Source of the DNA: Roseinatronobacter sp. S2
GTDB taxonomy: Bacteria > Pseudomonadota > Alphaproteobacteria > Rhodobacterales > Rhodobacteraceae
DNA length: 64,000 nucleotides
Assembly: GCF_029581395.1 (NCBI RefSeq)
Contig: NZ_CP121115.1
Coordinates: 496,001 to 560,000 of the forward strand
Direction of reading: 5' to 3'
Made by a program: the position numbers and the translations under genes. Positions 7,464 to 44,662 of the stretch are shown here, piece by piece; position 1 is the first letter of the stretch, and each line of letters starts with the position of its first letter. The notes beneath the pieces were generated by a model that searched no databases, was not told the origin of the DNA, and saw only the letters and a list, made by a program, of their open reading frames with translations.

Positions 7464-7499
7464 GACGCGCTTTCAGCGCAACTATCCAAGCATTACTTG

Positions 7500-7519
7500 C
7501 CCGGAGCTATGGCTCCGGG
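7500..7519 (+). terminator. Hairpin terminator after the ALDH operon
   Basis: Perfect 8-bp stem CCCGGAGC/GCTCCGGG with a 4-base loop, 36 bp after the third ALDH stop. It is followed by TGGTTTCATTTT, a broken T-rich tail, so it probably acts as an intrinsic terminator. Confidence 0.65.
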
Positions 7520-12513: not shown

Positions 12514-13125
12514 TGCGAGTTTATTCGACAGCACAACTGGGACGAAGATCTGCTATCTAAGCGGGAATGAAGAACTGAAGACGAAAGTTTCAGACCTCCG
12601 CGCCGTGGAATCCACCCCCGGCAGCGTTTTGCAAGCCGACGTGGATGGCGAGATCGACACTGGCCGGGACGAACGCAGCGACGAATGCATAATCTAACCA
12701 GAACCGCCTTGGCGGCCACGCCGGGCGGAGCATCGGTAAGGCCTGCGTTCGTGCCCAATTTTTTGGCTATAGATACTGTCACGCGGATATCTTGCGTGCA
12801 GACGTCATGTGGGATCGGGGGATTTATATCATGAAGCCCAGCCCGACTGGCTGCCTGCCGAAATTAGCAACAGGTTGATAAATAATAAAAAACGGCAATT
12901 TCGGTGCTTGGATAAGTCGCATCCAGATGTTCGGATACAAAGGGTTTTCACCTTGGGTCGGCCGAAATCTAATACTTAACAAGAAATAATCTACTTTGCT
13001 CATTCCGGTATTGGGTTCAGCTTTTGCACATCCTGCGCACATCATTTTGCGATGCGGTGGCAGCTCAAGAACTGAAAATCGTTTCGCACCAATCTCGTGC
13101 GTAAATGCCAGTAGAGGACTCGAGT
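12514..13125. other. Intergenic region after the autotransporter
   Basis: About 610 bases. No hairpin with a T-tract follows the autotransporter stop. Short open frames are present on both strands without ribosome-binding sites or recognisable domains. The part near 12880-13000 is AT-rich and may contain the promoter of the flavin monooxygenase gene, but no clear -35/-10 pair can be defended. Confidence 0.4.
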
Positions 13126-25305: not shown

Positions 25306-26490
25306 TCAGGTCGTCCCCTTGGACAATTGCACGGTCGGATCACCAAATCCGCGCGGCACATAGAGGTTATGTGGACCGAGGTTTTTTACATCGGTTTCCC
25401 CGCATAAGGCCATCGTGACATCGAGTTCCTTATGAAGAATGTCCAGCGCCTTTGTCACCCCGGCCTCGCCCATGGCGCCCAGTCCATAGGTGAAGGCGCG
25501 GCCGATATAGGTGCCCTTCGCCCCCAGTGCGAGTGCCTTGAGTACGTCCTGCCCAGAACGGATGCCACTGTCGAAATGCACCTCGACCCGGTCGCCCACA
25601 GCCTCGATGATCGAGGGCAGCATGCGGATTGAACTGGCTGCACCGTCAAGCTGGCGCCCCCCGTGGTTCGAGACGATAATCGCATCCGCGCCGATATCGG
25701 CGGCGCGTCGGGCATCTTCAGGGTCCATGATGCCCTTGATGATCATCTTGCCGCCCCACCATTTCTTGAACTGTGCAATCCGTGGCCAGTCGAGAGCGTG
25801 GTCGAAGGCCTGGTTGGTCCAGGGCGCCAACGATGACGGATCGTCCACGCCTTTGGCATGTCCTGCGATATTGCCGAAGAACCGCCGTTTTGTGCCCAGC
25901 ATTTCCAGCCCCCACGGGATTTTTGTGAGCAGATCCATCATTGCAGACACCGTCAGTTTCGGGGGGGCGGAAAGACCATTTTTCAGATCCCTATGGCGTT
26001 GTGCCATGATTTGCAGATCGACGGTCACCACAATTGCGGAACATCCGGCCGCGCGCGCGCGGTCGAACAAGCGGCGCATGAACTCATCGTCTTTCAGCGT
26101 ATAGACCTGAAACCAGAAGGGTTTTGTCGTATGCTCGGCCACATCCTCGATTGAACAGATTGACATGGTGGACAGTGTGAAAGGCACGCCAAATCTCTCG
26201 GCGGCGCGGGCAGCCTTGATCTCTCCGTCCGCCGACTGCATCCCGGTCAGCCCCACCGGCGCAAGGGCCACGGGCATGGCCACATCCTGCCCTATCATCT
26301 GCGCGCGTGTCGAGCGGTTTGACATATCAACCGCGACACGTTGCTTCAGTCGGATGTGCTTGAAATCACTGGTGTTCTCGCGCAGGGTTTGTTCCGTCCA
26401 GCTGCCGGAAACGGCGTAGTCGTAGAACATCTTGGGCACACGGCGCTGGTAGCGTCGCCGCAGTTCTTCTATTTCAGTCACGACTGACAT
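25306..26490 (-). CDS. lldD: FMN-dependent alpha-hydroxy-acid oxidase/dehydrogenase (LldD-like)
   Basis: 394 residues, full length. APVGLTGMQSADGE and the SNHGGRQLDGAASS block hold FMN and the active site, including the catalytic His. HFDSGIRSGQDVLKALALGA is the phosphate-binding part. It oxidises an L-2-hydroxyacid, classically L-lactate to pyruvate. A GAGGGAA lies just before the ATG. The gene is monocistronic, convergent with the M20 gene across 19 bp, and upstream of it is a long region without genes. L-lactate is the most likely but unproven substrate. Confidence 0.92.
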   Translation of the reverse strand: MSVVTEIEELRRRYQRRVPKMFYDYAVSGSWTEQTLRENTSDFKHIRLKQRVAVDMSNRSTRAQMIGQDVAMPVALAPVGLTGMQSADGEIKAARAAERFGVPFTLSTMSICSIEDVAEHTTKPFWFQVYTLKDDEFMRRLFDRARAAGCSAIVVTVDLQIMAQRHRDLKNGLSAPPKLTVSAMMDLLTKIPWGLEMLGTKRRFFGNIAGHAKGVDDPSSLAPWTNQAFDHALDWPRIAQFKKWWGGKMIIKGIMDPEDARRAADIGADAIIVSNHGGRQLDGAASSIRMLPSIIEAVGDRVEVHFDSGIRSGQDVLKALALGAKGTYIGRAFTYGLGAMGEAGVTKALDILHKELDVTMALCGETDVKNLGPHNLYVPRGFGDPTVQLSKGTT

Positions 26491-28055: not shown

Positions 28056-28883
28056 CTAGACGAGTGAATTGATAGGGCCTAATTCACCTTTGCCCCACTC
28101 TGCCCATGAGCCGTCGTAAAGCCGTGCGTGACTATCGATACGCTCCAGACCAAGTGCAAGGACGCAGGCTGTCATGCCCGAGCCGCATGTCACAATAGAA
28201 GCAGCGGCGGTGTCGCCGAAACGCTGGCGCAAGCGCACCGCATCAAGGAAGCGCCCATCCCCGTCGGTCAATGTCGTAAACGGGATGCAATGCGCACCCG
28301 GCATATGGCCGGATTTCAGGCCGGGGCGCGGTTCAGGTGCCTTGCCGTCAAAGCGGTCTTGCGCACGGGCATCAAGCACTGTTTCGCAGCGCGCGGCAAC
28401 GAGCGCGGCCATATCTGCACCAGACACAACGCGGCTTTTATCCAGAACCCATGACCGCTCCGGCACGGTGGTTGCCTCACATGCACCCGAGGATACAGGA
28501 TGTCCGGATCTTTTCCAGATGTTCAAACCGCCATCCAGAACGAAGCTCTCCATAATTCCGAATACCCGAAGCGTAAACCACACGCGGGGTGCACTGAAAT
28601 GATTGGCGCTGCGGTCATAGACGACAACAGGCTTACGCCCGTCGATGCCCAGGTTCGCCATGGCGCGCGCGAATGTGGCTGCGTCGGGCAGCATATGCGG
28701 CAAGTCGCTTTGCGTGTCGCAAACCTCGTCGATTTCATACAGGCGTGCTCCGGGAATTCGCACGGTTTCAAACTCCAGCCGGCTTCTTGTCGGATCGGCC
28801 GGCAGGTAGTATGTGGCGTCCAGAACATGCACACGGTCGAGGTTTTTTGCCAGCCAATCAGCTTTCACAATGGGATCGGTCAT
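28056..28883 (-). CDS. 3-mercaptopyruvate/thiosulfate sulfurtransferase (tandem rhodanese)
   Basis: 275 residues, two rhodanese domains. The N-terminal domain is catalytically inactive and the C-terminal one carries the Cys (about residue 233) in the loop CGSGMTA. That loop is the mercaptopyruvate-type CG-S/A-G-x-T-A, not the CRKGVTA of thiosulfate rhodaneses, so 3-mercaptopyruvate is the better guess. The reaction moves a sulfane sulfur from mercaptopyruvate to an acceptor and releases pyruvate. The start overlaps the stop of the GlcD-type gene by 4 bp and it is the last gene of the TTT operon. The context suggests a sulfur-containing 2-oxoacid as an intermediate; that is inference. Confidence 0.88.
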   Translation of the reverse strand: MTDPIVKADWLAKNLDRVHVLDATYYLPADPTRSRLEFETVRIPGARLYEIDEVCDTQSDLPHMLPDAATFARAMANLGIDGRKPVVVYDRSANHFSAPRVWFTLRVFGIMESFVLDGGLNIWKRSGHPVSSGACEATTVPERSWVLDKSRVVSGADMAALVAARCETVLDARAQDRFDGKAPEPRPGLKSGHMPGAHCIPFTTLTDGDGRFLDAVRLRQRFGDTAAASIVTCGSGMTACVLALGLERIDSHARLYDGSWAEWGKGELGPINSLV

Positions 28884-30271
28884 GCGGCGGCCTTCTTCAG
28901 CGGAGGCAGGACTTTGTCGGGATTCATTATTCCCACCGGATCAAGCGCGCCCTTGATCCGGTGCATTAACGTCAGGGCAGGACCGTGTTCGTCCTGCATA
29001 TACTTGCGTTTTCCGGTGCCCACGCCATGCTCGCCCGTGCAGGTGCCATCACATGACAGGGACTTCGCAACCATGGCTTCATTAATCTTGGCGACAATAT
29101 CCAACTCGGCCTTTGCAGCCGGGTCAACGGAAAACACAACATGGAAATTTCCGTCGCCCACATGGCCCATGATCGAGGCCGGAACGGGGCAGTCGCGCAG
29201 CAGGCCCTTGGCGTGGTCTATGCAATCAGGCAGCGCAGAGAGGGGAACACAGACATCAGTGGCCCAGCCGCGGCACCCTGCGCGCTGATTGACCGTTGCC
29301 GTATAGGCTGAATGGCGCGCACGCCAGAGGCTGTTTCGTTCCTCTGCCCGCTCTGCCCAGCGGAAGTTCGCGCTGCCATTCATTTCAGCGATGTCCTTGA
29401 ACATATCGACCTGTTCCTTGACACCCGCTTCCGAGCCGTGGAATTCGATGAAGAGCGTGTCTGCTTCCACTTCGTTCAGGTGCGAAAAGGCGTTGACTGC
29501 ACGGATGCACCCTTCATCCAGATATTCCACCCTTGCCAGCGGCAGGCCGACCTGAATGGCCGCTATCGCGGTTTGACAGGCAGCGTCGGGACTGGGGAAG
29601 GTGCAGATAGCGGCCCGCACTGCCTCCGGCCTGCCATAAAGCTTCAGCGTGACCTCGGTGATGACGCCCAATGTCCCCTCGGAGCCGACAAAAAGATGCG
29701 TCAGGTCATAGCCCGCCGAGGATTTGCGCGCCCGCCGCGCTGTGCGCATAATTTCACCTTCTGGCGTCACTACGGTCAGGTTCAGGACATTCTCGCGCAT
29801 TGTGCCATAGCGCACAGCGTTTGTTCCAGACGCACGGGTGGCGGCCATGCCGCCAAGCGTTGCATTCGCACCGGGATCGATGGGAAAGAAAAGCCCTGTG
29901 TCGCGCAGATGCGTGTTCAATGCCTCGCGGGTCACACCGGCCTCGACTGTGCAATCAAGATCGTCGGGGCGCACGTCAAGAATACGGTCCATCCTGCTCA
30001 GGTCGATGCAAAGCCCGCCGCGCAATGCGCTGGTATTTCCTTCAAGCGAGGAACCTGCGCCATGTGGGATCACTGCGATCTGGTGCGCGTTGCAGACCCG
30101 CATAATTGCGGCGACTTCTTCGGTTGTTTCCGGCCATGCCACGGCGTCAGGTGGCGCAGGATCGTGATGGGCTTCGGTGCCCGCATGATGATCGCGGTCT
30201 GCTTGCCGTTCGGACAAACGCGCGCCCAGCAATTGTATAAGCGCTACGCGCTGATCGTTGGAAAGGGTCAT
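28880..30271 (-). CDS. FAD-binding oxidase of the GlcD/D-lactate dehydrogenase family
   Basis: 463 residues. The PCMH-type FAD domain has VIPHGAGSSLEGNTSALRGG and DPGANATLGGMAATRASGTN. The C-terminal FAD-oxidase domain ends in GEHGVGTGKRKYM. The family oxidises D-2-hydroxyacids (glycolate, D-lactate, 2-hydroxyglutarate) to 2-oxoacids and passes electrons to a quinone or cytochrome. No GlcE or GlcF partner is adjacent. It begins 4 bases after the tctA stop and overlaps the sulfurtransferase start, so a 2-hydroxyacid brought in by the TTT system could be oxidised here and passed to the sulfurtransferase. Confidence 0.92.
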   Translation of the reverse strand: MTLSNDQRVALIQLLGARLSERQADRDHHAGTEAHHDPAPPDAVAWPETTEEVAAIMRVCNAHQIAVIPHGAGSSLEGNTSALRGGLCIDLSRMDRILDVRPDDLDCTVEAGVTREALNTHLRDTGLFFPIDPGANATLGGMAATRASGTNAVRYGTMRENVLNLTVVTPEGEIMRTARRARKSSAGYDLTHLFVGSEGTLGVITEVTLKLYGRPEAVRAAICTFPSPDAACQTAIAAIQVGLPLARVEYLDEGCIRAVNAFSHLNEVEADTLFIEFHGSEAGVKEQVDMFKDIAEMNGSANFRWAERAEERNSLWRARHSAYTATVNQRAGCRGWATDVCVPLSALPDCIDHAKGLLRDCPVPASIMGHVGDGNFHVVFSVDPAAKAELDIVAKINEAMVAKSLSCDGTCTGEHGVGTGKRKYMQDEHGPALTLMHRIKGALDPVGIMNPDKVLPPLKKAAA

Positions 30272-30275
30272 GAGT

Positions 30276-31772
30276 TCAAACCTTTTTCTTCTGTTGTATC
30301 CACCGCAAGAGGGGTGCTGCTATTTGCGCCAGCAATACGAGAACGATGCAGCTAAAGAGGACTGCACTGATCGGGCGGGTGATGAAGGTCGAAAGATCCC
30401 CGTCCGACAACATCAGTGATCTTCGGAAATTCTCCTCCATCATCGGACCAAGGACGAGGCCAAGAACCAGAGGCGCCACCGGGAAGTGCAGCAGGCGCAG
30501 GATATAGCCCAGAAACCCGAAAGCCAGAAGCTGGTAGATGTCGAAGACGGAATAGCGGATTGAATAGGTGCCAATCACCACAAGAACAAGGATTGCCGGG
30601 TAAAGAAGGCGGTAGGGAATACGCAGCATCGCAACCCAAAGCCCGATCATGGGTATGTTGAAGATCAGCAGGATCAGGTTCCCCAGCCAGAAGCTGGCGA
30701 TAAGCCCCCAAAACATTTCGGGTGTATTGCTAAGCATCTGCGGTCCTGGTGTGACCCCGTGCACGATCATTGCGCCCAGAAGCAGGGCCATCACAGCATC
30801 ACCGGGCACGCCCAGCGTCAGTGTCGGAATAAAGGCTGTCTGCGCTGCGGAGTTGTTCGCAGCCTCGGGACCTGCCACCCCTTCGACGATACCCTGACCA
30901 ATGCGGGCGCGATTGCGGGCCATCTTCTTTTCCGTTGCGTAAGAAAAGAACGACGCGATCGTCGATCCGGTGCCCGGCAGGGTGCCAAAGAAAGACCCGA
31001 TGGCCGAGCCGCGCCAGATTGCCGGCCAGCTGTCGCTCAGTTCTTTGCGTGTCGGGATCATTGATCGCAGCGAGATCTTGCCCGTGGGCCGCCTGCGTTC
31101 TGCACGCCCTATATTCGCCAGAATTTCGGACAGGCCGAACAAACCCATGGCCGATGCAACAAGGCTGATGCCGTCCATCAGTTCAAACTGCCCATAGACG
31201 AACCGCATGGTCCCCGAGGTTGTGTCCAGCCCGACGATCCCCAGCAGAACCCCCAAAGTCACCATGGCAAGGCCGCGCACCGCAGACCCTTCGGAAAGGG
31301 TAGAAGCCGCGACAAGGCCAAGCGACATCAGCAGGAAATATTCCTGACTGCCGAAGCGCAATGCAAAAGCTGCCAGCGCGGGTGCGAAACCCGACATCAG
31401 CAAGATGCCGATGCTTCCGCCAATGAAGGATGCAACCGCCGAAATGAACAAGGCCGCGCCTGCACGACCGTTTTTCGTCATCTCATAGCCGTCTATGCAG
31501 ACCACCGCCGAAGAGGCGGTTCCCGGCAGGCGCAAGAGGATCGACGCGACCGACCCCCCATATTGGGCGCCATAATAGATACCCGCCAACATGATCAGCG
31601 CGTCGGTTGGCGCAATGTAATAAGTCAGCGGCAGTAACATCGAGATTGCTGCCAGCGGACCTACGCCGGGCAACACGCCTATAAACATGCCGATGGAGAC
31701 GCCGACAAAGCAGAACATCAGCGTTTCCCACGAAAGGGCCACCTGAAATCCGAGCATAAGGTTGTCGATCAT
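30276..31772 (-). CDS. tctA: Tripartite tricarboxylate transporter, large permease subunit TctA
   Basis: 498 residues from the ATG at 31772, which overlaps the tctB stop (ATGA); an upstream in-frame TTG at 31784 is less likely. It has many hydrophobic segments and the TctA signatures GVLPGVGPLAAISMLLPLTY near the N-terminus and GTLPGTGSTIASFFSY in the middle. It is the main membrane channel of a TTT importer, driven by an ion gradient and fed by a periplasmic TctC protein. Substrate class: carboxylates. Confidence 0.95.
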   Translation of the reverse strand: MIDNLMLGFQVALSWETLMFCFVGVSIGMFIGVLPGVGPLAAISMLLPLTYYIAPTDALIMLAGIYYGAQYGGSVASILLRLPGTASSAVVCIDGYEMTKNGRAGAALFISAVASFIGGSIGILLMSGFAPALAAFALRFGSQEYFLLMSLGLVAASTLSEGSAVRGLAMVTLGVLLGIVGLDTTSGTMRFVYGQFELMDGISLVASAMGLFGLSEILANIGRAERRRPTGKISLRSMIPTRKELSDSWPAIWRGSAIGSFFGTLPGTGSTIASFFSYATEKKMARNRARIGQGIVEGVAGPEAANNSAAQTAFIPTLTLGVPGDAVMALLLGAMIVHGVTPGPQMLSNTPEMFWGLIASFWLGNLILLIFNIPMIGLWVAMLRIPYRLLYPAILVLVVIGTYSIRYSVFDIYQLLAFGFLGYILRLLHFPVAPLVLGLVLGPMMEENFRRSLMLSDGDLSTFITRPISAVLFSCIVLVLLAQIAAPLLRWIQQKKKV

Positions 31773-32239
31773 GGAAGCACCCAAGGCGGCATCATCCGCA
31801 ACTGCAAATCAAGCGCGAAAACGAAGATACCCCAGATCAGGCCCACGACAGTCACAACCAGCAGCGCGATTTCGCGCAGCGTCCGGCCGGTTTCAGCCAA
31901 TGCCGACACCGTGACCAGCACCGCGATAGAGATGGCACCGCCCAGCAAGGGGTAGAACACACCAAAAAGGATGATGGCCCCCAACAGATAGATCACCGGG
32001 CGCAACAGGCCGGGCGCGACCCGCTGATCGGGGTTTTGCCAACCTTCGATCAACAGCATCAGCCCGAAAAGAAGGAACAACCCGCCGAGCAATGCAGGAA
32101 AATAGCCCGGTCCCATGGCGTCCGCAGTGCCCAGACGCAGGCCGGATACCTGGATGAAGGTTACAGCGGCGACGGCGAACATCAACACGGCACCAAGGCC
32201 GCTGCGCGATGTCAGTGCTGCGAATATCTTATTGTGCAT
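31769..32239 (-). CDS. tctB: Tripartite tricarboxylate transporter, small permease subunit TctB
   Basis: 156 residues with four hydrophobic segments and the TctB pattern GLRLGTADAMGPGYFPALLGG between the first two. It is the small membrane subunit working with TctA. It lies 16 bases after the crotonase gene and overlaps tctA by 4 bp. Confidence 0.93.
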   Translation of the reverse strand: MHNKIFAALTSRSGLGAVLMFAVAAVTFIQVSGLRLGTADAMGPGYFPALLGGLFLLFGLMLLIEGWQNPDQRVAPGLLRPVIYLLGAIILFGVFYPLLGGAISIAVLVTVSALAETGRTLREIALLVVTVVGLIWGIFVFALDLQLRMMPPWVLP

Positions 32240-32255
32240 GACGGCTCCTGTCTGT

Positions 32256-32999
32256 TCAACGTCCGTGAAAGACCGGTGCCCGCTTGTTGCGGAATGCCTC
32301 CAGCGCGTCGGCGGCGTCTTGGCTGTTCATGACAGTGTCGACCTTGCGCGTGACGTCAAACAAGGTCTGGATGGGTGTGTCGCCCACAGCATCCAGACTC
32401 ATGCGTTTCAGCATCTCGACAACCAGTGGTGCGTTATCTGCAATCCGTCGCGCCAGTTTTCGCGCCTCGTCAACATGCGTGCCCGGGGCAACAAGACGGT
32501 TCGCCATCCCGCATTCATGGGCACGCTGCGCGGAAATAGGATCCCCGAGCAGCATCATCTCCTGCACGACCCGCAGCGGTCCGCGCTTGACCAGCGCCGA
32601 TACCGCACCCTTGGCAACCCCTATCTTGGCTTCGGGATAGATCAGCTCTGCATCCACCGTCAGAACGATGAAATCACACATCATTGCCAAGACCATCCCT
32701 GCCCCGATTGCCTTGCCGCTAATCGCTGCAATGATTGGCTTGTCGCAACGAAATCCGAATTCGGGCACTGCATGCCAAAACAACTCTGGCGGGTCGTTCA
32801 GATCCGCCCCGGCGCTGAAAACCTTGTCATCGCAGGCCTTCAGGATGGCGACGCGCGCATCGCCGCCGTCAAACCTGTCCCAGCACTGGCGCAAATCCGC
32901 GAACATCTGGCCAGTCATCGCGTTGCGTTTCTCAGGGCGACAGATGGTGATCTCTGCGATCCCGTCAGCCTCTTCATACAGGATATTCTCAAAGTTCAT
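32256..32999 (-). CDS. Enoyl-CoA hydratase/isomerase (crotonase) family protein
   Basis: 247 residues, crotonase fold. The oxyanion-hole segments are FSAGADLNDPPELF and ISGKAIGAGMVLAMMCDF, and ELIYPEAKIGVAKGAVSALV is the usual catalytic region, although GVAKGA replaces the common PGAGG. Crotonases hydrate, isomerise or cleave acyl-CoA thioesters. It sits between tctC and tctB inside the importer operon, which is unusual and ties it to the imported acid. The convergent acyl-CoA synthetase nearby could make its CoA substrate. Candidate reactions include hydroxycinnamoyl-CoA hydratase/lyase-like or methylthioacryloyl-CoA hydratase-like steps; neither is proven. Confidence 0.9.
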   Translation of the reverse strand: MNFENILYEEADGIAEITICRPEKRNAMTGQMFADLRQCWDRFDGGDARVAILKACDDKVFSAGADLNDPPELFWHAVPEFGFRCDKPIIAAISGKAIGAGMVLAMMCDFIVLTVDAELIYPEAKIGVAKGAVSALVKRGPLRVVQEMMLLGDPISAQRAHECGMANRLVAPGTHVDEARKLARRIADNAPLVVEMLKRMSLDAVGDTPIQTLFDVTRKVDTVMNSQDAADALEAFRNKRAPVFHGR

Positions 33000-33023
33000 T
33001 CGGCAACCTTTGGAAGAACCGGG

Positions 33024-33051
33024 AAAAGACCGCCTGCGGATGCAGGCGGTC
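33024..33051 (-). terminator. Intercistronic hairpin with T-run after tctC
   Basis: Perfect 10-bp stem GACCGCCTGC/GCAGGCGGTC (33028-33051) with a 4-base loop, followed on the minus strand by TTTT. It lies 16 bases after the tctC stop. It probably acts as a partial terminator, giving more binding protein than downstream gene products. Confidence 0.7.
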
Positions 33052-33067
33052 AGGTCGACAGGGACTC

Positions 33068-34021
33068 TCAGTCGATGGAGATGCCAGCGGCGTCACGGAT
33101 TTGGATGAAAACTTCGAAGTCGGATTCCACGGCTTCGTCCGTTTGTGCCGGATTGCGATAGGCCGGAAGCAGACCCATCTGAAGGACTCGCGCCTGATAG
33201 GCTTCGCTTTCCACCATCGCCTCAAGTGCGGCGCTCATCTTCGCAACAGCGTCGGAATCTGTGCCCGCTGGCGCAAAAACGCCGAACCAGCCACTCAGCG
33301 ACATTTCATAGCCTTGTTCCTTGGTTGTGGGAACGTCAGGGTAGGCAGGGTGGCGCGCGTCAGAAATCACCGCAATAACGTTCATATCCGGATTGTCGAT
33401 TTGTTGTGTCACAGCAGGGTCGACCATGAATTCGATTTCACCGGACAGAATGGCCGTCACGGCGTTGTTGGACCCCTGATAGGGGATGTGTCTGGCTTCG
33501 GCCCCTGCTTCATCCAGAAAATAGTTTGTCGAGAACTGGCCCATGGAGCCAACGCCCGCCGAGCCGTATTTGGCATTATTGTCTTTCAGATAGTCCACGA
33601 AGCTATCAAGGTCAGACACACCAAGACCCGCATTCACGCCGACGAAGACCAGTGAATCGGCCGTTGTGGCAATCCCGTCGAAGCTGTTTACCGGATCGTA
33701 GGTTACTGCCGGATTGATGATAGGTTGCACCACATTGGTGGCGTTGTTGCCGAAAAAAATCGTATAGCCGTCATTCGGTGCGCCAGCGGCCAGCGTGGCC
33801 CCGACGACGCCGCCAGCGCCCGGTTTATTGTCGATAACGACAGGCTGGCCGATGGATTCTGATATCGCCTCTGCTGCGAGGCGCGCGAGAATATCGGTCG
33901 TCCCGCCGGGGTTGTAAGGAACGATCATTGTGACAGGCTTTGACGGCCAGTCTTGTGCAAATGCACTGCCCGTCATCAGCGACATACCTGCAATTGCAAG
34001 ACCGAATGTTCTGGAAATCAT
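33068..34021 (-). CDS. tctC: Tripartite tricarboxylate transporter substrate-binding protein TctC (Bug family)
   Basis: 317 residues from the ATG at 34021, which follows GGGAGG; an upstream in-frame start is rejected. The signal peptide MISRTFGLAIAGMSLMTGSA ends in FAQ. The mature start DWPSKPVTMIVPYNPGGTTD is the Bug-family pattern. It binds a carboxylate in the periplasm and delivers it to TctA/TctB. It is the first gene of a minus-strand operon continuing through crotonase, tctB, tctA, the GlcD-type dehydrogenase and the sulfurtransferase. A palindrome typical of an operator lies about 100 bp upstream. Confidence 0.95.
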   Translation of the reverse strand: MISRTFGLAIAGMSLMTGSAFAQDWPSKPVTMIVPYNPGGTTDILARLAAEAISESIGQPVVIDNKPGAGGVVGATLAAGAPNDGYTIFFGNNATNVVQPIINPAVTYDPVNSFDGIATTADSLVFVGVNAGLGVSDLDSFVDYLKDNNAKYGSAGVGSMGQFSTNYFLDEAGAEARHIPYQGSNNAVTAILSGEIEFMVDPAVTQQIDNPDMNVIAVISDARHPAYPDVPTTKEQGYEMSLSGWFGVFAPAGTDSDAVAKMSAALEAMVESEAYQARVLQMGLLPAYRNPAQTDEAVESDFEVFIQIRDAAGISID

Positions 34022-34116
34022 GGTGTATCCTCCCGTTACCAATACGCGGCGTGACTGGGCCGCATGTCCTCCGGGTAAATGCTAGCATGGAGATTTATGT
34101 TTCTCAATGAATTGTT

Positions 34117-34137
34117 TTGTTCTAATATACAGAACAA
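34117..34137. promoter_or_regulatory. Palindromic operator in the tctC/IclR divergent promoter region
   Basis: Perfect inverted repeat TTGTTCT-N7-AGAACAA, with core GTTC-N9-GAAC. It is midway between the divergent tctC and IclR starts. A matching palindrome with identical core spacing precedes the acyl-CoA synthetase gene (37812-37828), so it is a likely binding site for one of the two IclR proteins. Confidence 0.75.
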
Positions 34138-34183: not shown

Positions 34184-34939
34184 ATGGATACTACACTGTT
34201 GAAAGGGCTAAATATTCTTGAAGTAATCGTCGCTGGGGGCGAACCAGCGAGTGTATCTGAGCTTGCGCGCAAGCTTGACCTACCAAAAAGCAATGTGCAT
34301 CGCACAGTCGCATCATTACGCGAGGCAGACTATTTGCGCTTCGATCCCGATTCGCGGCGATATTTTCCATCACTCAAGCTGGCACAAATGGGAACGCGGG
34401 TCGCTGCCAGCTTTCCGTTCCGAATGGCGGTCCTGCCATTCCTGCAAGCTCTTGTCCGGGAAACCAGCGAAAGTGCGCATTTCGCTTTGCTGGATGGCAG
34501 CAGCGTCGTATTTCTTGCAAATGCCTTGCCGTCGGTCGCCGTAGCCTCGGTTATTCCCGACAACCTGGCACTGCGATGGGATGACAGCGCACTTGGCATT
34601 GCGCTTGTTTCCGCATTGGCGGAAGACGCCCGTGCGGCACTGCTTGCGTCGTCCGGTGCATCGGACAAGACAGTGCAACAGGTCGCACGCGCCAGTATCG
34701 ATGGATATGCCTTGATCCGACGTCATGAAACGCGGCGCATCTTTGAACTGGCCGCGCCGGTCCTTTCCGAATGGAATACTGTCATTGGTGCAATCGGCAT
34801 CACAGGACCGGCTATGCGGTTCTCCGAAGATCGCCTTCCAAATCAGCTTGAAGCGACGCTGGCTGCTGCTGCTTCCGTTTTTCACCAGGACGCAGTAGAG
34901 TTTACCAAGGTATCTCAAACGAATACAGAACGCACATGA
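34184..34939 (+). CDS. IclR-family transcriptional regulator (first of two)
   Basis: 251 residues from the ATG at 34184 (AAGGCAGGTGA upstream). A start at 34079 would add an unusual tail crossing the operator palindrome and is rejected. The winged helix-turn-helix is ASVSELARKLDLPKSNVHRT and an IclR effector-binding domain fills the rest. It is divergent from tctC across about 160 bp and overlaps the second IclR gene by 4 bp. It most likely controls the TTT operon and probably the acyl-CoA synthetase. Confidence 0.92.
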   Translation: MDTTLLKGLNILEVIVAGGEPASVSELARKLDLPKSNVHRTVASLREADYLRFDPDSRRYFPSLKLAQMGTRVAASFPFRMAVLPFLQALVRETSESAHFALLDGSSVVFLANALPSVAVASVIPDNLALRWDDSALGIALVSALAEDARAALLASSGASDKTVQQVARASIDGYALIRRHETRRIFELAAPVLSEWNTVIGAIGITGPAMRFSEDRLPNQLEATLAAAASVFHQDAVEFTKVSQTNTERT

Positions 34940-35724
34940 TCAAGTCGGTGGACAAAGCGCTGCGCCTATTGGAAATTCTGTCGCAATCGGATCGCCCGAT
35001 GCGGCTGCGCGACATTGCGGAGGCATCGGAGTTGACACGCTCCAACGCCTTCCGGATGCTTCAGACATTGCGCGATCTTGACTATGTCCAGCAGACGGGC
35101 GACGGATCACATTATGACCTCACGCTCAAAATCTTCGAGATTGGCGCGCGCAAGGTTGCGTCGAACTCTCTCGTCTCTGTCGCGCATCCGGTCCTTCAGG
35201 CCTTGTCCGAACGAGTCTCGGAAAATGTTATGCTCAGCGTGCGCGAAGGCTTGACCAGCGTTGTCATAGACCGCATCGAAAGCCGTGCTTTCGTGCGGAC
35301 TTTCGCATATCTGGGTGCACGCGCACCACTCCATGCGGTGTCGGGGGGCAAGGTGCTTCTGGCCTTCGCACCAGAGGAGATCATCGCGGACATGACGCAG
35401 AACCTCGTCAGGTTCACGGACAGGACGATCACCGACCCCGATCGCCTTGCGCAGGAGATTGCGACGATCCGCGCGCAAGGCCATGCGACCGCGTTCCACG
35501 AAATCAACGAAGCCGCGCGCGGCGTGGCGGTGCCGATCCGGTCGCTGCATGGGGATGTTGTCGCGGCACTTAGTATTTCCGGACCGATGGAGGAATTGAG
35601 CGATGCGCTGATCGTGCGGTTTGTGGCCGAATTGCATGACCACACCGCGCAGATCGAGCGTGCCTGGTCTGGCGTCAATCAAGGTGTCGGCGTCTCAAGC
35701 GTTCCCCGCCCGTCCAGCGCATAG
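34936..35724 (+). CDS. IclR-family transcriptional regulator (second of two)
   Basis: 262 residues. The helix-turn-helix reads MRLRDIAEASELTRSNAFRM and the effector domain includes VSENVMLSVREGLTSVVIDRIESR. It starts inside the stop of the first IclR gene (ATGA) and its 3' end overlaps the opposing synthetase gene by 46 bp. Two different IclR proteins translated together is uncommon; they may form a mixed oligomer or sense two compounds. Confidence 0.92.
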   Translation: MIKSVDKALRLLEILSQSDRPMRLRDIAEASELTRSNAFRMLQTLRDLDYVQQTGDGSHYDLTLKIFEIGARKVASNSLVSVAHPVLQALSERVSENVMLSVREGLTSVVIDRIESRAFVRTFAYLGARAPLHAVSGGKVLLAFAPEEIIADMTQNLVRFTDRTITDPDRLAQEIATIRAQGHATAFHEINEAARGVAVPIRSLHGDVVAALSISGPMEELSDALIVRFVAELHDHTAQIERAWSGVNQGVGVSSVPRPSSA

Positions 35725-37796
35725 GCGCCGGTTTCGGTAATCCGGAACGGGTTCACCTCGAAATCGCGCAGCTGTTCGCCCAGATCCGGACCAAGCCAAG
35801 ACAGCCGCGCGATTGCTTCACAGGCCGCGTTGATTGCCAGCGGTGCCTGTCCGCGCGCCCCTGACAGAAGTGGCCATAGGCGAAGGCTTTCCAGCATCAT
35901 TCGTACATCTTCCGGTGTGACCGGCGCGCGACGCTGAACCACATCGTGCAAAAGCTCCACATGGATGCCACCTGCGCCCAGCACAAGCTGCGGCCCGTAT
36001 CCCGGTTCATTCGTCATCCCGACGATCAGCTCGATCCCGGGTGCAATCATTTGCTGCACATCAATCTGCGTTTGTGCACCGCTTGCGGCGTGTCCGATGG
36101 CCTGCGCGACTTCGGCAAATGCCGCGTGCAGCGCCTGTTCCGTCTTGATCCCGACTTTGACAAGGCCCAGATCGCTTTTGTGCACAACATCCGGCACCAC
36201 GCCTTTCAGGACCACAGGATACCCGCAATCCTTTGCTGCGACGGTTGCTTCTTCGACTGTTGTTGTCAGTTTTGCGACCGGAACGGAAACACCGTAGGCT
36301 GACAGAAGCACCTTGGCCTGAGGTTCTGTCAGGAAGCCGCTTGCTGTCACCTGTGGCGTGTCCAGATCGGCAGGGCGCGCGGGGTCGCGCTGGCGTATAG
36401 CCGATGCCCCCGCCAGATCATCGCGGTAAACCTGAAGCACACGATACAGATCATCGGTGCGTGTCACGAATGGTATGCCCGCTTCCAGTGCGCGGTCCCT
36501 TAGTTCATCCCCGAAACGGGACAAATTCAAGACCAGCACGAACGGCTTTTCCTGCCGTTGCCAGATACCGATTGCGTGGTCCAGCGTTTGCATCATCATG
36601 GGCTGCGGGGTCATGACATACGCGGTAACGCCGGTTGACGTATCCTGATGCACCGCGTTAATCGCCCGCTCGAAGATACCGAATTCGAGACCGCCTTTGT
36701 GCCCGCCCAAATCCAGCGGGTTGTTCTGGTGCGATGCGGGATAGTCTTGCTTCAGTCTTTGTCGTGTGTCATCGGAAAAGACGTCTGCGCGCAAGTCGCG
36801 CATTGCAAGCTGGTCGGCCATAATCGCCGCGCCGCCACCCGAAGCGCAGATGATACCCACGTTGGCACAAGCAGGTCGCGGGTTGGCAGACATGACACCT
36901 GCGCACAAGATCATGGCGTCCGGGTCGTCCAGCAGGACCACGCCAACCTCTAGGCAAAGCGTTTCAAATGCGGAAAACGAACCTGCAAGGCTTGCCGTGT
37001 GCGATTTCGCCAGATGCGAGCCAGCCTCTGTTCGTCCTGCCTTTACCGCCAGAACCGATTTTCCCGCAGCCCGCGCTTTCAGGCACAGTTCACGAAAGCG
37101 CGCGGGCGATTTCAGACCTTCGATATAGAGGCAAATGACCCGCGTTTTTTTTTCGTCGATGAAAGCTTCGAGGAAGTCGCAAAGTTCCAGATCGGCTTGG
37201 TTCCCGATGCTGACCATGCCCGACAGACCGACGCCGTGATCATGCGCTTGCAAGAACAGGGTTCCCATCATCGCACCGCTTTGGCTGATGAAGGCTACGC
37301 CCCCTTTGCGCAATGTTGCCGCATGGCGCAGCGTCGGCGTCGAGGACAGGGCAATGTTCGCCTGTGGCACAATCATACCCATGCAGTTTGGCCCAACAAG
37401 CCGCATCTTATGGTGCCGCGCAATCGCGACTATCCTTTCCTCCAGTGCGGCACCTTCCGCACTGAATTCGCCCAGTTGCGCAGTAATAATGACACAGACG
37501 CCCACCCCCGCCGTGCCGCAAGCTTCGACGGTTTCTTCAAGAAGGGTCGCCGGAACGGCCACCAGCGCCATATCCGACGGCTCCGGCAAGTCCGTTATGG
37601 ATTTGTAGCAGGTCAGACCCAGCAAACTCTCTCGTTTGGGATTGATGGGATAAATTTTTCCGCCGAATCCGTGATCAATCAAGTGATGCAGGATGCGCCC
37701 GCCGAACTTTGCATAATCCGCCGAGGCACCGATCAGGGCGATGGATTTCGGAGAAATTACGCGGCTCATTGCAATGGTGTTTGTTCGTTTGGTCAA
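35679..37796 (-). CDS. ADP-forming acyl-CoA synthetase (acetate--CoA ligase/feruloyl-CoA synthetase FerA-like)
   Basis: About 705 residues from a TTG at 37796 that has GGGAGG 5 bases upstream; an ATG at 37769 is the alternative. Domains in order: CoA-binding (SIALIGASADYAKFGGRIL), succinyl-CoA-ligase-like with the phospho-His in AKSHTASLAGSF, and C-terminal ATP-grasp (VVLKGVVPDVVHKSDLGLV). The protein joins CoA to a carboxylate with ATP to ADP plus phosphate. Length and fusion order resemble acetyl-CoA synthetase (ADP-forming) and the FerA-type feruloyl-CoA synthetases. With the crotonase and TTT genes it could activate an imported acid. The gene is convergent with the IclR pair and preceded by the same palindrome as tctC. 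Confidence 0.9.
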   Translation of the reverse strand: MTKRTNTIAMSRVISPKSIALIGASADYAKFGGRILHHLIDHGFGGKIYPINPKRESLLGLTCYKSITDLPEPSDMALVAVPATLLEETVEACGTAGVGVCVIITAQLGEFSAEGAALEERIVAIARHHKMRLVGPNCMGMIVPQANIALSSTPTLRHAATLRKGGVAFISQSGAMMGTLFLQAHDHGVGLSGMVSIGNQADLELCDFLEAFIDEKKTRVICLYIEGLKSPARFRELCLKARAAGKSVLAVKAGRTEAGSHLAKSHTASLAGSFSAFETLCLEVGVVLLDDPDAMILCAGVMSANPRPACANVGIICASGGGAAIMADQLAMRDLRADVFSDDTRQRLKQDYPASHQNNPLDLGGHKGGLEFGIFERAINAVHQDTSTGVTAYVMTPQPMMMQTLDHAIGIWQRQEKPFVLVLNLSRFGDELRDRALEAGIPFVTRTDDLYRVLQVYRDDLAGASAIRQRDPARPADLDTPQVTASGFLTEPQAKVLLSAYGVSVPVAKLTTTVEEATVAAKDCGYPVVLKGVVPDVVHKSDLGLVKVGIKTEQALHAAFAEVAQAIGHAASGAQTQIDVQQMIAPGIELIVGMTNEPGYGPQLVLGAGGIHVELLHDVVQRRAPVTPEDVRMMLESLRLWPLLSGARGQAPLAINAACEAIARLSWLGPDLGEQLRDFEVNPFRITETGAYALDGRGTLETPTP

Positions 37797-37811
37797 GATT
37801 GCCTCCCAAAT

Positions 37812-37828
37812 GTTCCGTATATCAGAAC
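37812..37828. promoter_or_regulatory. Palindromic operator upstream of the acyl-CoA synthetase
   Basis: GTTC-N9-GAAC with the spacer CGTATATCA, matching the tctC-side site (spacer TAATATACA) in arms and spacing. It lies just upstream of the synthetase ribosome-binding site, where a bound repressor would block transcription. Confidence 0.68.
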
Positions 37829-38819
37829 GCAAATGCGTATTTTGATACATCTCACTTCATTTGGGCACTTGAGTCAAGAAGCCTGCAATGCAAGCGACAT
37901 CATAGCCAGCTATTGCGGAATCCTTTATTTGTTCTGTAATTTGAAACATGTATGATAATTGAGAAGTGTACTAACCAATGCAATCATTCGGAAAAACGGC
38001 TTCGCAGATTTGCGGCAGGCCGTTCTGTGGCAGGGGTGCTTAGAAACATCGTATGCAAAGTCGCGCTTGGGGGACGCCGTGCCGGAAGCTAAAACAATAG
38101 GGTGTCTACCGACTTTCGCGGATGATGTTTTCATTGAGGCGATGTGCACATGTATGGATATCCCCGTTCGCGCAAAATGTGTGTGATCGGGATCACCGCC
38201 CAGCCGCGCCGCCGGGATAAGCCCCAAGATACGAAACGGGTCCAGAATCCGCTATCCAATCCAGAAACCGGCATGCCTCCACGGGTTCTCATCGCCCAGA
38301 CGAAACCAGTGGGCACAACGAGGATCTGGCGGACCTCCATCGACTGGCAGATGGGCCAGCGAACATTTCGGGATTGAAACGAGCCGGATCGCGTGGTTAC
38401 AGCGCCGCCAGCCTGTTCCACTCCGCACGATCAGCGCGTCGGTCGAGTGCAGGCGGCGACAGCAACGCCGACACACATAGCTTCAGCACAGTGCAGAAAT
38501 ATTAAGGAATTCCATCTGAAGGATCCTTGCTGTGCCAGTATTCGAATTGAACGCTAATTCCGAGATGCGCCATGGCTTTGTTCAAACCTTGGAGCACAGC
38601 GCTACGCGCGCGCCTGATTTTACATCGCCGCCAATGAGTTCGGCCAGCGAATGCCCGGTTCCTTTGCGAAAGCTTCCACCTTGGCGCGGGCCTTTGCGCT
38701 TTGCCGGTGTTTATAGGCGGTGATCGTCTTGGCGATGTTCCCTGTGCAATTTGCGCAGCCCCGAAAGCAACAGCGCCCCGCAACTTCCTGACGGGTGGAC
38801 ACGCGAGATCGCGGGTATC
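37829..38819. other. Intergenic region with no intact gene
   Basis: About 990 bases upstream of the synthetase. A degenerate copy of the palindrome (GTTC-N9-AAAC, 37931-37947) lies 100 bp from the good one. The rest holds short frames without recognisable domains; the stretch 38500-38800 on the minus strand may be the decayed 3' part of the IS6-type transposase noted next. Confidence 0.4.
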
Positions 38820-39085: not shown

Positions 39086-39838
39086 CTACGGCCGTGCAGG
39101 CAAAGTCCGGACCGTGCGCCGTGCACGCCAGCGGTCAAAATCGCGCTGCGATGTTTCCAGCAGTTCGGCATTCAGGATTCGCATGGCGATTGCACGGTTC
39201 AACGCCCGCACCCGTTTGTTGAACCCCGTCCCGCCCGCTGTGTCGCCAGTTTCATCATCCAGAACGCCAAGTTTTTCATATAGCGACAACAAGCGGTTCT
39301 GCACTGTTCGCAATGACATGCCGCGGCGTTCAGCGATACTGCGGTCTTGCAGCCCAAGCGCAAGGTCCAGAAGCACGGCATATTCGCTGTCATCCAATGC
39401 ATTGCGGGGCAATGTGGTGCGACGCTGGAAGCGGTGGATTTCGCGGTCAACCATGATCTGCCCCTCGATCAGAACGGCGCGCAACGCAAGTTTCAACCGT
39501 TCGCGTGTCGCGGTTTTCAGGACATAACCATAGGCGCTGTCTTCGGGCACGATCTGGCTGATGCCGCGCAAATATGCCTCATCCGAATAGTTGGACCAGA
39601 ACAGGATGCGGGTGTCGGGCCGTTCGGACCAGATGGTGCGCGCAGCCTCTATCCCGTTCTGCTTGTCCATCTGCAAATCCATCACCACGGCTTCTATCCG
39701 TCCCGCGCGGGCCTCTGTGGTGCCGGCAAGCCCGTCGACGGCGTGCAGTGTCTCGGTGACTTCGGGCAATGCCTCGGCCAGCGTATCCTGAAGATAGGAC
39801 GCATGGAACTGGTCATCTTCGACAATCAGAACCTTCAT
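39086..39838 (-). CDS. Two-component response regulator, receiver plus LuxR-type helix-turn-helix
   Basis: 250 residues from the ATG at 39838. The receiver domain has the acidic pair in VLIVEDDQFH, the phosphoacceptor Asp in AVVMDLQMDKQNG and the conserved Lys in YVLKTATRE. A C-terminal helix-turn-helix region follows (LALGLQDRSIAERRGMSLRT, about 165-205). It overlaps the histidine kinase stop by 4 bp. It should activate or repress the sugar ABC operon divergent from the kinase gene, where two tandem palindromes are found. Confidence 0.9.
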   Translation of the reverse strand: MKVLIVEDDQFHASYLQDTLAEALPEVTETLHAVDGLAGTTEARAGRIEAVVMDLQMDKQNGIEAARTIWSERPDTRILFWSNYSDEAYLRGISQIVPEDSAYGYVLKTATRERLKLALRAVLIEGQIMVDREIHRFQRRTTLPRNALDDSEYAVLLDLALGLQDRSIAERRGMSLRTVQNRLLSLYEKLGVLDDETGDTAGGTGFNKRVRALNRAIAMRILNAELLETSQRDFDRWRARRTVRTLPARP

Positions 39839-41040
39839 GTGCGGCCCTCCTTTCCGGCCCCGCGCAGCGTCACCACGACACATGTGCCCGCGTTCTCCAG
39901 TATTTCAAGATCGGCATCGATCAGGCGGGCACGGGTGCGCATATGCGACAGGCCCGACTGCCTGCTGGCCGTGGTGGCCGAAAAACCGCAGCCATTATCT
40001 TGAACTGTCAGGCGCAGCCGTCCGGTCGGGTCATGGTCGATCATGACGCCAATGCGCGTTGCACCGGAATGGCGCGCGGTGTTGTTGATCGCCTCTTGCG
40101 TGATGCGAAACAGCGCGGTGCGCGTGGTTGTGTCCAGCCGGTCGGGGGTGTTGCCCGTCCGGTCGTCCACGTCAACCACGACCGGCGCATGCCCCGTGGC
40201 ACGTTCCAGATGGACGCGAACCGCATGGGCAAAGCCGAATAATTCCACAAGTGTCGGAACCGCCGTGTCGATGATCCGGCGCAGGTCATCAATGCAGTGG
40301 CCAAGGCGTTCTGCCAGCACCTGCCGGTCCGGTGTCGCCGTGTCTGCGGTCAGATCGCGCAACAAGCGCGTCAGGTCGGCCAGCGTCTGGTCGTGCAGGT
40401 CCATGCCGATGCGCTGGCGTTCGCGTTCCAGTTCCTGCGTCAGGTCCAGCGCGCCTTTCCGCAAACCTTCTTCGCGTGCCTGCGCTTCGGCCCGGGCGCG
40501 CGCCACCTGTTGTGCCTTTTCCGACGCGTGCAGGGCATGAAAATAGGGTGCCAGCATATCCGCCAGATGGCGCGCCCGCGTCACGGTTGCCCCGTCATAA
40601 AGGCCGCGCGCATTATGTGAGATATTCAGCGTGCCGATCACCCTGCCCATAACCTTCATTGGCACATTGACCCGCGACCGCAGGTCATGGCGGAAAATCG
40701 GCTCGCATCGCGCCCCTGCAAAAGTATAGCGCGGATCTTGGGTGGCGTCCGCAGTCAGCATCGCGTCACACCGCGCGGTCAGAAGATCACGGACAGGCGA
40801 ATTCTGAACACGGGTGCGCTTGCGCGACCAGCTTGTGGTGATGCCAACCTCATAGCTGACTGTCCAGCCGGGCGAGTCGTTGAGGCAGATATCAGCATGC
40901 GTGAACGGGATCAGTGATGCGATTTCGTCTGCGACCGCCGCCAGCGCGGAGGGGATTTCGGTTTCGCCCGCCAGATGGCCTGAAATACGCATGAAGACAT
41001 CATGTCCGGCCAGTGCCAGCGGGGCTGATGCGGTGGACAC
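39835..41040 (-). CDS. Soluble sensor histidine kinase (GAF domain, HisKA_3 and HATPase)
   Basis: 401 residues from a GTG at 41040 preceded by GGAGGA at 5 bases. A far longer frame to 41844 crosses the divergent binding-protein gene and is not the true start; an ATG at 41088 is possible. A GAF-type sensor lies about residues 20-175. The dimerisation/phosphoacceptor region follows with His in GMDLHDQTLADL, and then the ATPase with NNTARHSGAT and DNGCGF. No membrane segment is seen, so it senses a cytoplasmic signal. This NarL-type pair likely responds to the sugar, or its metabolite, taken up by the divergent ABC system. Confidence 0.88.
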   Translation of the reverse strand: MSTASAPLALAGHDVFMRISGHLAGETEIPSALAAVADEIASLIPFTHADICLNDSPGWTVSYEVGITTSWSRKRTRVQNSPVRDLLTARCDAMLTADATQDPRYTFAGARCEPIFRHDLRSRVNVPMKVMGRVIGTLNISHNARGLYDGATVTRARHLADMLAPYFHALHASEKAQQVARARAEAQAREEGLRKGALDLTQELERERQRIGMDLHDQTLADLTRLLRDLTADTATPDRQVLAERLGHCIDDLRRIIDTAVPTLVELFGFAHAVRVHLERATGHAPVVVDVDDRTGNTPDRLDTTTRTALFRITQEAINNTARHSGATRIGVMIDHDPTGRLRLTVQDNGCGFSATTASRQSGLSHMRTRARLIDADLEILENAGTCVVVTLRGAGKEGRT

Positions 41041-41113
41041 AGGCTTCCTCCATGACTTGGCTGCGCTTACCCGCAAGCATATAGCCATGTATTGCAGAAA
41101 GAAATAACCGAAT

Positions 41114-41151
41114 CCGCACCTGATATGCGGGAACCCGCAACAGATATGCGG
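41114..41151. promoter_or_regulatory. Two tandem palindromes CCGCA-N7-TGCGG in the kinase/ABC divergent promoter
   Basis: Copies at 41114-41130 and 41135-41151. Both have perfect 5-bp arms and spacers ending in GATA, and their centres are 21 bp apart, two helical turns. This is the expected layout for cooperative binding of a dimeric response regulator on one face of the DNA, about 120 bp upstream of the binding-protein start. Confidence 0.72.
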
Positions 41152-41265
41152 CTTCCTGTCTTTACAGACCCGACAGGCCCCCATAGCCTTTTCCCACGCT
41201 CGGTATGTCCGGGTCACGACAGGGAGGAGCATGCTGGCAATCTGCTGCATGCGAAGGGAGGAAAC

Positions 41266-42279: not shown

Positions 42280-42285
42280 CACGAC

Positions 42286-43716: not shown

Positions 43717-43718
43717 GC

Positions 43719-44654: not shown

Positions 44655-44662
44655 GGGGGCAC

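Follow-up and report, generated by a model that had tools for sequence, protein, structure and literature searches.

A nine-gene cluster lies within a 64,000-nucleotide stretch of the genome of Roseinatronobacter sp. S2 (hereafter the window), and we tentatively propose, with confidence a little short of even, that it forms a substrate-controlled catabolic unit that degrades a carboxyalkyl thioether of 3-mercaptolactate. The cluster comprises a six-gene minus-strand run, which encodes the three components of a tripartite tricarboxylate transporter (TTT; TctC, TctB, and TctA), a crotonase, a flavin adenine dinucleotide (FAD)-dependent D-2-hydroxyacid dehydrogenase, and a 3-mercaptopyruvate-type sulfurtransferase (MST), together with two divergent IclR-family regulator genes, iclR1 and iclR2, and an ADP-forming acyl-coenzyme A (CoA) ligase gene beyond the iclR genes (table 1). 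In the proposed pathway, a di-acid, for which 3-[(2-carboxyethyl)thio]lactate and 3-[(2-carboxypropyl)thio]lactate are candidates, would be bound outside the membrane by TctC and imported by TctAB. The ligase would turn the carboxyalkyl arm into a CoA ester, and the crotonase would eliminate the beta-thio group in a retro-Michael reaction, yielding an enoyl-CoA, which would enter general metabolism, and free 3-mercaptolactate. D-3-mercaptolactate would then be oxidized to 3-mercaptopyruvate by the dehydrogenase, a flavoenzyme of the D-lactate dehydrogenase (LDHD) type, and the MST would accept the sulfur in the form of an enzyme persulfide, freeing pyruvate. Both the tctC operon and the ligase gene may be controlled by the IclR proteins through a common palindrome. 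What the analysis established is the gene content and its conservation, the kinship to modules of the 3-mercaptopropionate type, a conserved operator-like site, and the catalytic residues; the substrates, the reactions, and the regulation are all inferred. If true, this would assign a catabolic role to MST, usually a housekeeping sulfurtransferase, show how thioether conjugates of cysteine-derived lactate can be degraded, and attach a concrete function to genes that are now annotated by family only. Searches of titles and abstract openings in the open-access literature, subscription literature being outside their scope, found no account of bacterial mercaptolactate breakdown by this route.

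Organization and conservation of the nine-gene cluster

The six genes of the run (tctC, crotonase, tctB, tctA, dehydrogenase, and sulfurtransferase) were all present as open reading frames (ORFs) on the minus strand, and their positions, order, and Pfam families agreed with an earlier sequence-only reading of this DNA, as did the ATG start of tctC. A longer version of the tctC ORF begins at TTG 34042, and an internal ATG lies four codons past the TTG start of tctA. The six products carry TctC, ECH_1, TctB, TctA, FAD_binding_4 plus FAD-oxidase_C, and Rhodanese domains, all over the cut-off; with TctA, TctB, and TctC encoded together and their three families above cut-off, the transporter belongs to the TTT group. 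The closest Protein Data Bank (PDB) chains to TctC were 2dvz, 5oei, and 2f5x. Because the intergenic gaps along the run are only 68, 16, -16, 4, and -4 bp, the six genes are likely to form one transcription unit.

The distribution of the cluster was examined with the window MST in a sample of 295 family genomes, approximately one per genus. An MST match of some kind was found in 289 of them; the best E-values were 1.1e-190 in the window genome and 3.4e-102 (58% identity) in a Pararhodobacter genome (G222), and all others were no better than 3.7e-62. At E 1e-70, the search returned only the window's own copy, in 1 of 398 phylum genomes and in 1 of 37 genus genomes. A first contig scan with a single MST query gave no loci, and another, based on an alignment of two crotonase sequences, gave 13, of which four showed 69-86% identity and nine (25-29%) were dropped as unrelated crotonases. 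The latter scan undercounts, because it relies on two exact peptide patterns.

The four orthologous loci thus obtained belong to Salipiger sp. IMCC34102 (L047), Pararhodobacter sp. CCB-MM2 (L048, which we took as the same contig as the G222 locus, L039), the metagenome-assembled genome RHODO2 (L049), and Roseinatronobacter sp. HJB301 (L050). The genes for TctC, the crotonase, TctB, TctA, the ligase, and both IclR proteins were present in all four, with 39-90% identity across the cluster proteins (TctC 64-76%, crotonase 69-86%, TctA 82-90%, IclR2 55-85%, and ligase 68-78%). The unit extends beyond the six-gene run that the sequence-only reading described, since iclR1, iclR2, and the ligase gene accompany the run in every one of these loci. 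The dehydrogenase and MST genes were present and adjacent in three of the four, so the neighborhood analysis, which that reading had named as a check, left the association of this pair with the TTT genes in place. In Pararhodobacter, the pair was relocated to a place between the ligase gene and the two iclR genes and is not encoded on the same strand as the tctC operon, but it still lies within the cluster. The flanking lldD, argE, and lysR genes were matched in none of the four loci at E 1e-8 (flanks of at most 10 kb, shorter in L050). Judging from these sequence comparisons, the recurrence of the gene set is more than chance. In L050, a Rieske oxygenase and a reductase (11194-13507) lie 3' of tctA, where the other loci hold the dehydrogenase and MST.

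Crotonase-ligase modules and thiodipropionate degradation

A crotonase search of the same 295 family genomes at E 1e-45 found seven, namely the window genome, G222, and five sister loci at 39-45% identity, in which TTT genes were nearby in all five and a ligase gene in four. Three of the sister loci (L079, L080, and L081) share TctA, the crotonase, the ligase, a second crotonase, a cysteine-dioxygenase-family protein, CaiB, and an S/N-oxide reductase homologue, with an IclR gene nearby; their identities to the window were 35-36% for TctA, 39-42% for the crotonase, and 41-42% for the ligase. The cysteine-dioxygenase-family protein was not found in the other two (L078 and L082). A plasmid of Polaromonas P1-6 (L046) carries homologues of CaiB, the dioxygenase, the second crotonase, the ligase, the crotonase, and TctC, several of them in pieces (identity to the window 36% for the crotonase and 32-44% for the ligase pieces), and no TctA or IclR was found in that stretch. 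Among solved structures, the L079 dioxygenase was nearest to the 3-mercaptopropionate dioxygenases 3uss/4tlf (235 bits) and 4wvz (231 bits), followed by 6xb9 (229 bits) and 4qma (217 bits), both named cysteine dioxygenase type I by their depositors; mercaptosuccinate dioxygenase scored 38 bits, and the remaining entries, mostly named cysteine dioxygenase type 1, scored at most 24 bits. The S/N-oxide reductase homologues were not accepted as bisC_fam (910 and 949 bits versus a cut-off of 1018). The module of L079-L081 and L046 is apparently a thioether or mercaptopropionate pathway present in Rhodobacteraceae and on a Polaromonas plasmid. Because a homologue of 3-mercaptopropionate dioxygenase is encoded in these related crotonase-ligase-TTT clusters, cleavage of a thioether by the ligase and crotonase is the better reading of the window cluster. 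Import, ligase, and crotonase are common to both kinds of module, whereas the dioxygenase homologue and CaiB of L079-L081 stand where the window has the dehydrogenase and MST; a tblastn search of the whole window with the L079 dioxygenase, CaiB, S/N-oxide reductase, and second crotonase found only the known crotonase (E 1e-6).

The crotonase of the window retains both hydratase glutamates, E123 and E147, which we take to be equivalent to E144 and E164 of the rat enzyme, as well as the SAGAD motif of the oxyanion-hole region. A known system of similar design, which the gene set of the sister modules also resembles, is the catabolism of 3,3'-thiodipropionate (TDP) in Variovorax paradoxus TBEA6, which involves ech-20, ech-30, a crotonase-family gene, mdo, act, and acdA, with uptake through TctC. 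Deletion of ech-20 or ech-30 was reported to abolish growth on TDP, Ech-20 was stabilized by TDP-CoA and not by TDP, and cleavage of the thioether by Ech through beta-elimination is one of the two variants proposed there (PMC6370202); a requirement of TctC for TDP uptake has also been reported (PMC8102459). The window and TBEA6 share TctC-type uptake, CoA activation, and enzymes of the enoyl-CoA hydratase family. However, a thiol dioxygenase, a CaiB transferase, and an acyl-CoA-dehydrogenase-like desulfinase are all missing from the nine proteins of the cluster, which instead include an ADP-forming ligase along with the D-2-hydroxyacid dehydrogenase and the MST.

The sequence-only reading had offered as an alternative the import of a hydroxycinnamate-like aromatic acid that is handled by the ligase and crotonase, with the MST in an unrelated role. 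This alternative gained no support and we regard it as highly improbable: beyond a general kinship of the two enzymes to crotonases and ligases of aromatic-acid routes, the NCBIfam and Pfam scans of the nine proteins found no aromatic ring-cleavage gene, and the homologous modules with nameable partners carry a thiol dioxygenase homologue.

Operator-like sites in the cluster

Alignment of the tctC upstream regions of the window, Salipiger, RHODO2, and Roseinatronobacter revealed a conserved palindrome, TGTTCTGTATATTAGAACA, which we presume to be an IclR site (table 1). Its occurrence in these four sequences is no independent test, because the pattern was derived from them. In the window, two matches were found at up to 3 mismatches, compared with 0.05 expected, and the second of them precedes the ligase gene. 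An operator-like site was likewise found upstream of the ligase gene in four of five loci, namely the window (3 mismatches), L049 (2), L050 (1), and L039, and none was detected at up to 3 mismatches upstream of the ligase gene in L047. In L039, sites with 3 mismatches each lie upstream of tctC and between the ligase and dehydrogenase genes, and the site at 8687-8705, with 3 mismatches, precedes the relocated dehydrogenase-MST pair. Shuffled sequences gave 0.00-0.05 palindrome matches per locus. Genome-wide, at up to 2 mismatches, the window genome has one further site besides that of the cluster, and G222 has a single site, at C49:93876-93894 (11877-11895 of the locus L083), between the lyase-MST genes described below and a second TTT set. 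A promoter-like site downstream of the operator also lies in the conserved block; it is a consensus match only, and three such sites were found in the region compared with 5.2 expected.

Table 1. Genes and putative regulatory sites of the cluster (window positions)
Feature	Coordinates	Strand	Basis or remark
MST, 3-mercaptopyruvate-type sulfurtransferase	28056..28883	-	top PDB matches 1urh, 3olh, 4jgt
LDHD-type FAD-dependent D-2-hydroxyacid dehydrogenase	28880..30271	-	mouse LDHD 8jdc, 467 bits
tctA, TTT large membrane subunit	30276..31784	-	Pfam TctA 511.8 bits
tctB, TTT small membrane subunit	31769..32239	-	Pfam TctB 54.6 bits
Crotonase (enoyl-CoA hydratase family), proposed C-S beta-eliminating	32256..32999	-	Pfam ECH_1 143 bits
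tctC, TTT periplasmic binding protein	33068..34021	-	Pfam TctC 170 bits; ATG 34021
Promoter-like TTGAGA-17-TAGCAT	34079..34107	-	in conserved block, downstream of operator; consensus match only
Palindromic operator-like site, presumed IclR site	34118..34136	-	TGTTCTGTATATTAGAACA; conserved upstream of tctC in 4 aligned sequences
iclR1, divergent IclR-family regulator	34184..34939	+	Pfam HTH_IclR and IclR_C; ORF from 34079, likely ATG 34184 (orthologues align from residue 35-36)
iclR2, second IclR-family regulator	34936..35724	+	Pfam IclR_C 133.7 bits
ADP-forming acyl-CoA ligase	35679..37769	-	Pfam Succ_CoA_lig and ATP-grasp_5; likely ATG 37769, ORF from 37850
Second operator-like site	37811..37829	+	3 mismatches; ~40 bp upstream of likely ligase start

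Dehydrogenase and sulfurtransferase pairing

The top PDB matches of the sulfurtransferase are all named 3-mercaptopyruvate sulfurtransferase. In common with mammalian and bacterial SseA/MPST proteins, it has two rhodanese stretches in tandem, a CGSGxT loop (CGSGMT), and conserved active-site residues; D52, H63, R177, R186, C233, and S235 were kept in the aligned copies, within blocks that match the solved MSTs. In MSTs, the Asp, the His, the two Arg, and the loop hold mercaptopyruvate or act in catalysis. In contrast to SseA/MPST, the window protein is a second MST, 42% identical to the other copy of the genome, which is presumed to be the housekeeping one, and its gene sits inside a catabolic operon. 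There is precedent for a sulfurtransferase in the vicinity of a thiol enzyme: in Advenella, a rhodanese-related sulfurtransferase gene lies close to that of mercaptosuccinate dioxygenase (PMC5373536).

For the dehydrogenase, the sequence-only reading had proposed a GlcD type. The FAD_binding_4 and FAD-oxidase_C domains bear out the family, and the narrower assignment to glycolate oxidase GlcD does not hold: the protein scored 330.9 bits against TIGR00387 (cut-off 567.9), no glcE or glcF partner was found in NCBIfam and Pfam scans of ten neighboring proteins, and the best PDB match was mouse LDHD, an FAD- and Mn-dependent enzyme. The catalytic and metal residues are common to both proteins. In a hand count on the mouse LDHD alignment, numbered after PMC10589216, all subsite-A residues (Arg, two metal His, Glu, and His) were present as R319, H370, H377, E414, and H415, and the Mn- and glycolate-binding residues were retained; the hydrophobic subsite, in contrast, was altered by the same count (W351 to Y, S365 to A, and I407 to V; V101 not mapped). 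Mouse LDHD was reported to oxidize D-2-hydroxyacids with hydrophobic side groups and to reject hydrophilic ones, and the passages of that report on LDHD mention no mercapto substrate (PMC10589216). Given this rejection, the oxidation step would need the free thiol, so that cleavage of the C-S bond would come first. The same preference bears on another explanation, in which the released thiol is not mercaptolactate and the dehydrogenase and MST handle another 2-hydroxy-thiol, or an S-substituted lactate before C-S cleavage. The L050 locus, which holds the core without the pair, fits this explanation, and so do Rhizobium loci with a D-lactate dehydrogenase (D-LDH) and an S/N-oxide reductase and no intact MST, which show that other dehydrogenase partners are possible; it is nevertheless quite unlikely in our judgment, as the MST residues presumed to hold mercaptopyruvate are all retained and hydrophilic side groups are rejected by the mouse enzyme.

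Pairs of an MST and a flavoenzyme were also observed in other MST lineages. In G222, the locus L083 (C49, 5116-15802) carries a lyase of the aspartase/fumarase superfamily with a GSSTMPHKRN loop, an MST, and, ~1.2 kb on, a GlcD-like protein, together with divergent TTT and IclR genes. The lyase was not accepted as XcbD (504 bits versus a cut-off of 600), and the purB model passed its own cut-off (352 versus 326); a phylum search with it matched 0 of 398 genomes, a sample without a known positive, so that this carries little weight. Plasmids of Variovorax paradoxus SPNA7 and 2u118 (L097 and L098) encode, in a row, a GlcD-like protein, a lyase 61-62% identical to that of L083, TctC, an MST, and an S/N-oxide reductase homologue, with TctC as the only TTT component found. 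These XcbD-like loci resemble the window in combining an MST, a GlcD-family flavoenzyme, and a TTT component, and differ in that the candidate C-S step falls to the lyase rather than to a ligase and crotonase; L083 and L097 (lyase, MST, GlcD-like protein, and TTT component at 6431-13656) are candidates for a second C-S cutting route to mercaptolactate. Three Rhizobiaceae plasmids (L091, L092, and L100) carry DsbA-like, MST, D-LDH, and S/N-oxide reductase genes, with TTT genes only in that of Neorhizobium (L092). In Martelella, the MST adjoins an FAD/Fe-S protein, and in a further MST lineage, that of Paracoccus aminophilus and three other genomes, a DAO-family flavoenzyme adjoins the MST in three of four loci. 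In the MST tree, the window type grouped with Ketogulonicigenium (100/99), the Rhizobiaceae, Martelella, and G150 formed another clade (99/93), and Variovorax grouped with Burkholderia (100/100), with L083 beside them at weak support (90/74). Because at least three lineages of the MST tree are involved, the recruitment of MST looks independent. The tree of the dehydrogenases placed the four of the window type apart from seven paralogues and seven Rhizobiaceae/G150 proteins, at a fork of 90/99 that was not starred.

Among 25 loci, which were chosen by hand and some of which were also queries, a GlcD-like gene lay within 1.5 kb of the MST gene in 8 and within 5 kb in 9. As controls, such a gene was found within 1.5 kb in 0 of 30 loci from a class-wide search that used the Neorhizobium MST as query (too lax at 1e-80, with 124 of 318 genomes matched) and in 1 of 28 loci from the family sample, two control loci being cut off by contig ends; the sole positive, L029 of G150, turned out to belong to the Rhizobiaceae type. 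These counts bear on the possibility that the pair joined an acid operon of TTT, crotonase, and ligase as passengers, with the dehydrogenase as a D-lactate oxidizer and the MST as a general persulfide donor. One of the four orthologous loci lacks the pair, few genomes carry the cluster, and the MST falls under its equivalog cut-off, all as a passenger pair would allow. However, the pair was retained through the Pararhodobacter rearrangement, other MST lineages paired in parallel, and such a neighbor within 1.5 kb occurred in only 1 of 58 other MST loci; an origin as passengers is therefore improbable.

The parallel MST-flavoenzyme pairs, together with the conservation of the pair, also favor the end of the route in the sequence-only reading, from mercaptolactate through mercaptopyruvate to pyruvate. 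Its starting point fared less well. Had free 3-mercaptolactate (or its disulfide) been imported and passed straight to the dehydrogenase and MST, the ligase and crotonase would serve another acid or a side reaction; import of the free acid is less likely because these two genes, conserved in all four loci, would then have no role. The dehydrogenase and MST genes share 4 bp where they meet, loci have either both or neither, and a like pair occurs in the L083, L092, and L097 stretches without a crotonase or ligase of the window type, as direct import would predict. Nevertheless, we consider it unlikely: the ligase and crotonase are the constant part of the cluster, an operator-like site lies at the ligase gene in four of five loci, homologous ligase-crotonase pairs accompany a thiol dioxygenase homologue, and in L083 and L097 their place is taken by a lyase that is a candidate for C-S cleavage.

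Several observations weigh against the proposed degradation of a 3-mercaptolactate thioether. The cluster is rare, being found in 2 of the 295 family genomes by best MST score, and its MST scored 205.3 bits against NCBIfam NF008557, under the equivalog cut-off of 250, which was also missed by three other scanned MST homologues (221-238 bits). No gene in the cluster indicates a particular acyl arm; both acryloyl-CoA and methacrylyl-CoA are known to form cysteine conjugates in human ECHS1 deficiency (PMC8507190), and by analogy the 2-hydroxy counterparts of these conjugates may be natural substrates. No dehydrogenase or MST orthologue was found in the L050 genome (best MST 43%, best dehydrogenase 51%, both outside the locus), and since L050 holds the core alone, the core can function without the pair. 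The Ketogulonicigenium MSTs, the nearest outside the cluster, have no GlcD-like dehydrogenase gene within 5 kb. Three Rhizobium loci picked by dehydrogenase similarity included two without an MST and one with a remnant only, a 34-residue piece in Rhizobium leguminosarum Ta9k (L148, 5849-5950) that is 70% identical to the Neorhizobium MST and lies between the DsbA-like gene and the D-LDH gene, the site of the intact MST in L091, L092, and L100; the remnant and the MST-less loci suggest that the MST-dehydrogenase pairing is older than the loss but dispensable. As for regulation, a reversed-pattern control equaled the pattern matches in two of five genomes, those of the window (G000) and G712, and gave zero matches in G222, G713, and G714. 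Because looser GTTC-N9-GAAC motifs recur in L080 and in further places in L039, the operator may represent a motif common to IclR proteins of this kind, and we gave up the L083 match as a sign of cross-regulation, a shared IclR motif being as likely.

Beyond the window, we suggest, more guardedly than we propose the thioether pathway itself, that mercaptolactate is a catabolic node that bacteria reached several times with different C-S cutting modules. The ligase and crotonase of the window, the XcbD-like lyase, and the S/N-oxide-reductase-linked set would each feed 3-mercaptolactate to a flavin dehydrogenase and a recruited MST, so that cysteine-derived thioether waste would yield pyruvate and usable sulfane sulfur.

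Other arrangements were noted around related genes. The Rhizobium-type operon of DsbA-like, D-LDH, and S/N-oxide reductase genes occurs with or without an MST gene in L092 (6299-11574), L147, and L149, and lies close to sfnG/msuE in L149 and, in L147, to a sulfonate transporter. MSTs of another lineage adjoin a DAO-family flavoenzyme in L043 (10001-12165), L084 (8186-10338), and L093 (8056-10137), where an amino-acid oxidase may work with the MST. In Ketogulonicigenium robustum (L041, 6847-12831), genes for MoeA, a DUF2478 protein, a methyltransferase, and an iron-type ABC transporter precede an MST of the window clade. In the window itself, an LldD-type flavin mononucleotide-dependent L-2-hydroxyacid dehydrogenase, over the cut-off of PRK11197 (L-lactate dehydrogenase), is encoded at 25306-26490 (minus strand), 1.5 kb downstream of the operon; it was dropped as a partner for the L-isomer, being unmatched in all four orthologous loci at E 1e-8. 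A separate set of the sugar type lies at 39086-46530, where response regulator and histidine kinase genes adjoin those of an ABC transporter and of a gluconolactonase-family protein.

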